NCBI RefSeq assembly: GCF_004348545.1
Contig: NZ_SMKL01000025.1
Span: forward strand, 1 to 64,000
DNA from: Jiangella ureilytica
GTDB taxonomy: Bacteria > Actinomycetota > Actinomycetes > Jiangellales > Jiangellaceae
DNA: 64,000 bases
Direction: 5' to 3'
Shown here: positions 32,710-48,230 of the stretch, one piece after another
How positions within the stretch are numbered: the stretch's first letter is position 1
Layout of the letters: each line of letters opens with the position of its first letter
The notes under the pieces: generated by a model
What the model saw: the letters and a program-made list of their open reading frames with translations, nothing else
The model's database searches: none
Told to the model about the DNA's origin: nothing
Made by a program: the position numbers and the translations under genes

Positions 32710-32758
32710 GCCCCGATTCTCCCACGGCGGCTCACCAAGGCCGTCTTATCGCCGCTAC

Positions 32759-33060
32759 ATGATCATCAGCCTTTCGTGCCGCTCTGGAGCCTGTTGCGGA
32801 ATCGCGCCTCGCACGATGTCCACCGGAAGTCCTCCGCCGCGTGTCACGTGGCGATGGTTCGGGCTGCGGTGAGGTCGCGCCGGCCCGTCAATGTTGATCA
32901 TGGAGAAGAGCAGGTTCCGGCTGCCCGAGAACCTGCACTTCTCCATGATCAACACCTGCTGTCGGGCTGCTCGGGAGCCTGTTGCGGAATCGCGCATGGC
33001 CGGAGGTCCACCGGAAGTCCTCCCGCGACGCACATGGCTGATGATCTTGGGATGCGGTGC
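32759..33060. repeat. Two diverged tandem copies of a ~115-base repeat flanking a hairpin
   Basis: The non-coding gap between the regulator and vapC is built of repeats. Copy A (about 32759-32877) and copy B (about 32945-33060) both start ATGATCA and share an exact 22-base block starting ggagcctgttgcgg (32786-32807, 32974-32995). A 10-base variable segment follows, then an exact 18-base block gtccaccggaagtcctcc (32818-32835, 33006-33023). Weaker similarity extends on both sides. Copy distance is 188 bases. The hairpin at 32893-32953 lies between them. No ORF is supported here. Confidence 0.7.
32893..32953. repeat. 61-base hairpin element with GTTGATCATGGAG arms
   Basis: GTTGATCATGGAG (32893-32905) pairs perfectly with CTCCATGATCAAC (32941-32953). 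The stem continues inward through AAG and GCAGGTTC (32910-32917) against 32929-32936, giving 24 of 25 pairs with an 11-base loop. The same ends recur at 48159-48230, so this is a dispersed element and not a simple terminator. Confidence 0.75.
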
Positions 33061-33067
33061 CGCGCCC

Positions 33068-33460
33068 TCAGCTCGGAGCGGTGACCGGAACTCCGTTGTC
33101 GTTCGCCGCGTCGGCCAGACGCTCGTCGTAGGTGACGATCGTGTCCAGGTCGTGACCGAGCTCGAGTGCGGCGGCGAGATGAAGGGCGTCGAGAGTGCGC
33201 ACGAGCTCGGGGCCGAGGCGGCCGGCCTCCTCGACGGTGGCGGTGGAGAGCTGGACCAGCGTGATCGAGTCCAAGACGGCCCGCGCCTGGACGACTCGAT
33301 CCGGCGCCGCACGTCGAACGGCACGCAGGAGCTCGGTGCGGGTGAGGTCACTGGACACCGGTGTGCGGTCCTCCTCTTGGAGCCACGCGTGCAACGCCTC
33401 CGTCCCGTCCTCGGCGACGACGAGCTTCACCAGTGCAGAGGTGTCGAGGTCGTGCGCCAC
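33068..33460 (-). CDS. vapC: VapC-type PIN-domain toxin
   Basis: 130 residues from GTG 33460, the usual VapC length. The four acidic catalytic residues are all present: Asp6 in DLDTSALVKL, Glu43 in LTRTELL, Asp91 in RTLDALHLAAAL, Asp112 in VTYDERLADAA. VapC proteins are magnesium-dependent RNases, typically cutting tRNA or rRNA. The gene begins one base after the stop of a short upstream frame that looks like the tail of a Phd-type antitoxin (33462-33590), so the toxin appears intact while its antitoxin is truncated. Confidence 0.88.
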   Translation of the reverse strand: MAHDLDTSALVKLVVAEDGTEALHAWLQEEDRTPVSSDLTRTELLRAVRRAAPDRVVQARAVLDSITLVQLSTATVEEAGRLGPELVRTLDALHLAAALELGHDLDTIVTYDERLADAANDNGVPVTAPS

Positions 33461-33461
33461 G

Positions 33462-33590
33462 TCAGAGTCGCTCGTCTCGCATGGCCGCGAGCTCATCGGA
33501 CAGGGACGGCCCTTCGGTGGGAGCCCCTTCGGGTGGCGCCTCCCGGCCGCGAGTGCTTAGCGTGTGCTCGTCGACACCGGGAGGCGCCAC
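33462..33590 (-). pseudogene. C-terminal remnant of a Phd/YefM-type antitoxin
   Basis: A 42-codon open frame ends TGA, one base before vapC. Its end PTEGPSLSDELAAMRDERL, preceded by a Pro/Glu/Gly-rich stretch, resembles the toxin-binding tail of Phd-family antitoxins (typically a Pro-rich linker, then SLSDxLxxxRxxR). The DNA-binding N-terminal half (about 45 residues) is missing; that space is occupied by the start of the opposite-strand gamma-carbonic-anhydrase gene. A GTG at 33590 could allow translation of the tail alone. Confidence 0.5.
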
Positions 33591-48158: not shown

Positions 48159-48230
48159 GTTGATCGTGGAGTCATGGCGGGATCAACCGGACGAATCCCC
48201 TCGCAACTGCGCAGTTGCTCCATGATCAAC
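48159..48230. repeat. Second copy of the GTTGATC...GATCAAC hairpin element
   Basis: GTTGATCGTGGAG (48159-48171) and CTCCATGATCAAC (48218-48230) are 13-base inverted ends with one mismatch, identical in the right arm to the element at 32893-32953. Inside is a perfect 16-base palindrome GCAACTGCGCAGTTGC (48203-48218). Downstream sequence (gggaccctgcgg) again resembles the ggagcctgttgcgg block of the first copy. It lies in the 238-base spacer between an ECF41 gene and the GntR gene. Confidence 0.7.

Follow-up and report, generated by a model that had tools for sequence, protein, structure and literature searches.

Dispersed palindromes in Jiangella and a palindrome-bracketed AbiEi-DUF559 nuclease gene as their likely source

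We propose that the 61-nt hairpin in the window, by which we mean the whole 64,000-nt stretch of Jiangella ureilytica DNA analysed here, represents a mobile palindrome in its solo, non-autonomous form, that this palindrome derives from a unit of about 1.1 kb in which one gene lies between two such hairpins, and that the putative nuclease encoded by this gene mobilises the palindromes. Taken as a whole, we give this reading a probability of about two in three. Based on comparison of sequences, the likely source of the palindromes is a bracketed gene that joins an AbiEi-like part to a DUF559 nuclease part, and it is from this arrangement that we infer mobilisation by the nuclease. Since the hairpins that bracket the gene are matched to it in class, they suggest that soil bacteria carry a type of selfish DNA element not described so far. 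With somewhat less assurance, we favour the view that these units make up a new class of bacterial transposable element, moved by an AbiEi plus Vsr-like (DUF559) nuclease that acts on the palindromes on either side of its own gene and may also invert the DNA between them.

The near-perfect 61-base hairpin of the original prediction is real. It folds at -27.1 kcal/mol (z = -10.6), and its 13-mer arm, with up to two mismatches allowed, finds 16 matches within the window against 2.7 expected. A second hairpin about which the same prediction was made is likewise present; it belongs to another size class than the first and has another core. The copies fall into two classes, here termed S and L, each of which is represented in the window by a single copy (Table 1). 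In the close relative G008, the gap orthologous to that of the L copy has no detected element, and near the S copy synteny with G008 breaks at about position 33543. Nothing in the window matched Rfam at the gathering score; on this result, together with the lack of a bias of G-U over A-C mismatches described below, we rejected a structured RNA identity for the hairpin.

Table 1. Coordinates of palindromes and repeats, given as window positions except in the last five rows, which give G008 positions
Feature	Coordinates	Strand	Remarks
Left copy, local ~100-nt direct repeat	32771..32871	+	this locus only in genome; outside dispersed family
Solo S-class palindrome, 61 nt	32893..32953	.	arms GTTGATCATGGAG / CTCCATGATCAAC
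Right copy, local ~100-nt direct repeat	32955..33060	+	this locus only in genome; outside dispersed family
Solo L-class palindrome, 72 nt	48159..48230	.	arms GTTGATCGTGGAG / CTCCATGATCAAC
Other G008 hairpin repeat (ATCACCACGATTACCCGAGCCTC...GAGGCTCGGGTAATCGTGGTGG)	4465325		in L266
Other G008 hairpin repeat	4714389		in L278
Other G008 hairpin repeat	5175221		in L241
Other G008 hairpin repeat	5361501		in L251
Other G008 hairpin repeat	5478085		in L256

The two window hairpins are members of a large family. When the J. ureilytica genome (6.35 Mb in 168 contigs) was scanned for arms, the exact arm GTTGATCNTGGAG was found 105 times, with 52 and 53 occurrences on the two strands, whereas the reversed arm pattern used as a control was found nowhere; all the exact arms listed belong to hairpins, except for one chance match within a coding region. 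This number far exceeds the ten or so copies that had been suggested as a check on a repeat family, and the two-arm pattern is present in all 12 Jiangella genomes examined, at 2 to 110 exact copies per genome, which upholds the earlier view of a non-coding palindromic repeat spreading between genes. In J. ureilytica, the L class comprises 35 copies of exactly 72 nt, usually with the arm GTTGATCTTGGAG, and the S class nine copies of exactly 61 nt with the arm GTTGATCATGGAG; some further copies are one base longer or shorter. The arms are symmetric (GTTGATCNTGGAG) in palindromes of either length and the flanks carry no common tag. Pairwise identity among the J. ureilytica copies has a median of 0.74-0.75 and a maximum of 0.93. 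Base 8 of the arm is variable and covaries with its partner (30/35 paired vs 21 expected). Searches with exact arms pick out intact arms, and so we draw from them no claim of selection on the arms. Outside the genus, the two-arm pattern was seen in a single genome, from a sister genus, and was absent from the order's nine remaining genomes; the taxa among the matches listed are Jiangella spp., Haloactinopolyspora alba, several Micromonosporaceae and one 'Streptomycetales' MAG. A literature search with the 13-mer returned unrelated matches only.

The direct repeats on either side of the S hairpin have a different origin. They are 81-86% identical to one another and share exact 22- and 18-base blocks, just as had been described from the window sequence. 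However, these blocks had also been counted as part of the repeat family, and a search of the J. ureilytica genome found them at no second locus; they therefore represent a local duplication, separate from the dispersed family. Both direct repeats and the hairpin lie inside an outer imperfect inverted repeat (TGATCATCAGCC / GGCTGATGATC, window 32758-33049). As a recurring unit this outer repeat was rejected, there being no other paired occurrence in the J. ureilytica DNA searched. A PIN-domain gene (PF01850; window 33071-33496, minus strand) adjoins the hairpin and looks incidental to it.

Copies of the palindrome that are as close as 97% identical have unrelated flanks directly outside the arms, and thus the moving unit reaches from arm to arm. 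In a comparison with 1.6 Mb of the ~90%-identical relative G008, where flanking identity was mostly 85-95%, both flanks were found for 18 J. ureilytica copies; the element is missing from 12 of these sites, at some of which the surrounding intergenic DNA differs too, and is present at six. Near-identical copies with unrelated flanks and 12 empty sites out of 18 together argue that the unit moves. At one site followed through the genus, G008, G006 and G004 have no copy and G000, G005 and G010 have one, with the core in the opposite orientation in G000. Target-site duplications, which the original prediction had proposed to look for, did not appear: no direct duplication of 3-10 nt accompanies any of 162 copies, and none is seen in the empty form of the cross-genus site. 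Left flanks are rich in C and right flanks in G. Copy-specific complementarity between flanks was considered and discarded, as in other genomes only the first two bases showed it clearly, and across 15-25 nt it was weak. Two S hairpins of G008 lie 263 bp apart (L267, ~2632 and ~2895; G008 4482632 and 4482895) with the common immediate flanks AACCCCG and ATGGGGGCGCCG, as if the pair had been duplicated in tandem.

Genes were called around the hairpins with a custom ORF caller, and 142 copies had both neighbours. These lie in 82 tandem, 49 convergent and 11 divergent gaps, compared with 290, 88 and 156 among background gaps of at least 80 bp, so that divergent gaps are depleted in hairpins. In tandem gaps the hairpin sits a median of 34.5 nt past the upstream stop versus 99.5 nt ahead of the next start, and is nearer the stop than the start in 70 of 82 cases (p 5e-10); at 24 of 180 facing gene ends the hairpin arm itself supplies the stop codon. 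Such positions fit tolerated or preferred insertion at gene ends. The same preference for sites just past stops, the depletion of divergent gaps and the stop codons drawn from arms would also favour hairpins that are mainly bidirectional terminators or mRNA 3' ends under selection, with dispersal secondary. We think this quite unlikely, since the stems of tandem copies contain about as many G-U pairs (34) as A-C mismatches (28) on the transcript strand and the core is oriented at random relative to transcription, neither of which gives a sign of a selected RNA hairpin, since many orthologous sites are empty, and since terminators leave unexplained why a single gene family is bracketed in a class-matched manner.

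That bracketing speaks for our preferred reading, a palindrome mobilised by a nuclease. In the J. ureilytica genome, homologous genes lie within two pairs of S hairpins spaced about 1.03 kb, and in the DNA examined across genomes 11 of the 15 hairpin pairs spaced 0.5-2.3 kb apart enclose one gene family; among these 11 are one deleted relic (L182) and one pair from Micromonospora solifontis (L097). S genes are bracketed by S hairpins only (23/23 bracket positions) and L genes by L hairpins only (14/14), giving class-matched brackets at 37/37 scored positions. Among the Jiangella genomes examined, G002 alone has no close S or L gene; it contains 97 exact hairpins, and the relatives of the gene found in it are all remote. 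Four exact hairpins are present in G012, where the family gene was not detected. Both genomes weigh against our reading, under which their hairpins have to act in trans or be relics, and we take hairpins that lack a gene to be relics. In G001 the S gene is broken and the four exact hairpins are all S, and G011 combines an S gene with just two exact hairpins.

A more conventional account would make the palindromes MITEs of an ordinary transposon, with the nuclease gene a mere passenger caught between two copies. The Jiangella palindromes do resemble MITEs (reviewed in PMC10969869) in being short, non-coding, multi-copy inverted-repeat elements that are dispersed mostly between or 3' of genes. 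They differ in having no target-site duplication, and the exact arms of the J. ureilytica genome revealed no parent IS with a recognised transposase and the same ends; for these reasons they are not typical MITEs. In addition, the listed arms lie in hairpins but for the one coding match, the brackets enclose no other gene, the two gene subfamilies follow the two hairpin classes exactly, and the association recurs in other genera with different sequences. We therefore regard the MITE account as unlikely.

The bracketed gene encodes a protein of about 300 aa which, by Pfam and PADLOC AbiEi profiles, has an AbiEi-like N-terminal part and a DUF559/MTES_1575 C-terminal part. In Pfam an S protein matches PF18741 (1.4e-9) and PF04480 (7.4e-6), and L scores more weakly. 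In an AlphaFold2 model of an S protein (pLDDT 82.6), the C-terminal part aligns with the homing endonuclease I-Bth0305I (Z 12.2, rmsd 2.3, 96 residues) and with Vsr (Z 10.3, rmsd 2.8, 100 residues), and the N-terminal part of about 180 residues aligns with an AbiEi antitoxin (Z 11.4, rmsd 5.7, 175 residues); Foldseek alone gave weak E-values. The L proteins share 41-43% identity with the reference S protein, and E206, D239, D254, H256, D266 and D270 (numbered on the first alignment row) are invariant across the putative S and L nucleases. A dN/dS of 0.20-0.34 indicates clear purifying selection on the bracketed gene.

Thus, in its catalytic domain the Jiangella protein has a fold like that of the EDxHD homing endonucleases, exemplified by I-Bth0305I (3R3P), but it is fused to an AbiEi part and bracketed by palindromes, it is accompanied by many ectopic solo palindromes, and no intron or intein is involved. 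Similarly, its N-terminal part matches the AbiEi of AbiE type IV toxin-antitoxin systems by both fold and profile, whereas no AbiEii partner lies between the brackets, which hold one gene of such size only, and the protein has a C-terminal nuclease domain instead. AbiEi antitoxins are DNA-binding autoregulators. On this ground the palindromes might be operators through which the AbiEi-like part autoregulates its own gene, the dispersed copies forming a regulon. We find this very improbable, as a second palindrome stands at the 3' end of the gene, the dispersed copies are scarce in the divergent gaps that hold promoters, and duplication and inversion affect the bracketed unit as a whole.

The duplications concern the autonomous-type unit of hairpin, single gene and hairpin. 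G008 contains two such units, one at 2.68 Mb and one at 3.75 Mb, that share 90% identity across 1122 bp. Two in G000 are 80% identical across 1134 bp, and their homology ends 8 nt beyond one hairpin and 23 nt beyond the other. At two orthologous loci the gene also looks invertible. The interval between hairpins is precisely inverted with respect to collinear flanks in G000 C33 (L329:6780-7876) compared with G008 (L388), and a second inversion distinguishes G000 C76 (L330:7290-8374) from G011 and L182 (compared locus L371). Inversion between hairpins could be either enzyme-driven or, which would count against our reading, plain homologous recombination. At L182:1862-2531, S hairpins 547 bp apart surround a remnant of the nuclease gene, which makes this locus a possible internal-deletion derivative of the autonomous unit.

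Members of the gene family occur in 134 of the 247 genomes sampled from the class. For 45 family loci that lack the GTTGATC hairpin, we compared the upstream with the downstream flank for repeats and set the threshold by a 99% cross-locus control, computed without hairpins common to several loci. A repeat pair above this control was present in 21 of the 45 relatives against 0.5 expected; the other 24 had no such pair, which counts against our reading. Flank repeat scores above 20 were reached by 15 of the 45, compared with 3 of 282 similar-sized ordinary genes in G008, these three being an apparent tandem duplication, an IS-type transposase and a member of the AbiEi-DUF559 family itself. The flank repeats of several relatives are clear palindromes of other sequence (L363, L381, L384, L396), and two such palindromes in G008 also have a solo copy elsewhere. 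A TGATC motif common to the palindromes of other enzymes was rejected as weak (6/17, p = 0.025).

The closest parallel in organisation is the REPtron, which combines REP palindromes with a RAYT (TnpA-REP) enzyme (PMC3733652, PMC8266576). As in REPtrons, the palindromes are intergenic and dispersed, matching ones flank a single enzyme gene, and target duplication is absent. In contrast, the Jiangella enzyme is an AbiEi plus Vsr-like nuclease and not an HUH/Y1 transposase, and the stems span 61-72 nt without a GTAG (or CGTC) tag, whereas REPs measure 20-40 bp. A RAYT-like source had been suggested for the window repeat; Y1_Tnp (PF01797) was found in none of the 12 Jiangella genomes by a search that was positive in five control genomes, and RAYT/IS200 is thereby rejected as the source throughout the genus. 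Given the absence of both HUH enzyme and GTAG tag, the Jiangella system works like a REPtron but is no member of that group.

In our model, two systems coexist in Jiangella, the 61-nt hairpins with enzyme subfamily S and the 72-nt hairpins with subfamily L. The AbiEi-like part would recognise the arms and the Vsr-like part would cut or nick at the hairpin. A copy would then be placed elsewhere via repair or strand transfer, without target duplication, and new copies would land mostly just downstream of gene ends.

In the literature searched, the only enzymes named for dispersed bacterial palindromes are HUH (Y1) transposases, and for several palindrome families no enzyme is known. Our search, which covered few subscription journals and preprints, found no work joining DUF559 with inverted repeats, AbiEi or, in a relevant sense, palindromes. 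If our reading is true, a second, unrelated type of enzyme with class-matched palindromes would represent a new mobility chemistry, and the AbiEi-DUF559 fusion proteins, widespread as they are in the class, would gain a testable role. Furthermore, many Actinomycetes proteins labelled just DUF559 or AbiEi-like would turn out to be enzymes of mobile elements, or domesticated relatives of such enzymes, and each would have a palindrome of its own. Another long hairpin repeat, approximately ATCACCACGATTACCCGAGCCTC...GAGGCTCGGGTAATCGTGGTGG and preceded by GATGATCATCAACGATC, is also dispersed in G008, with at least five copies in 1.6 Mb (Table 1).
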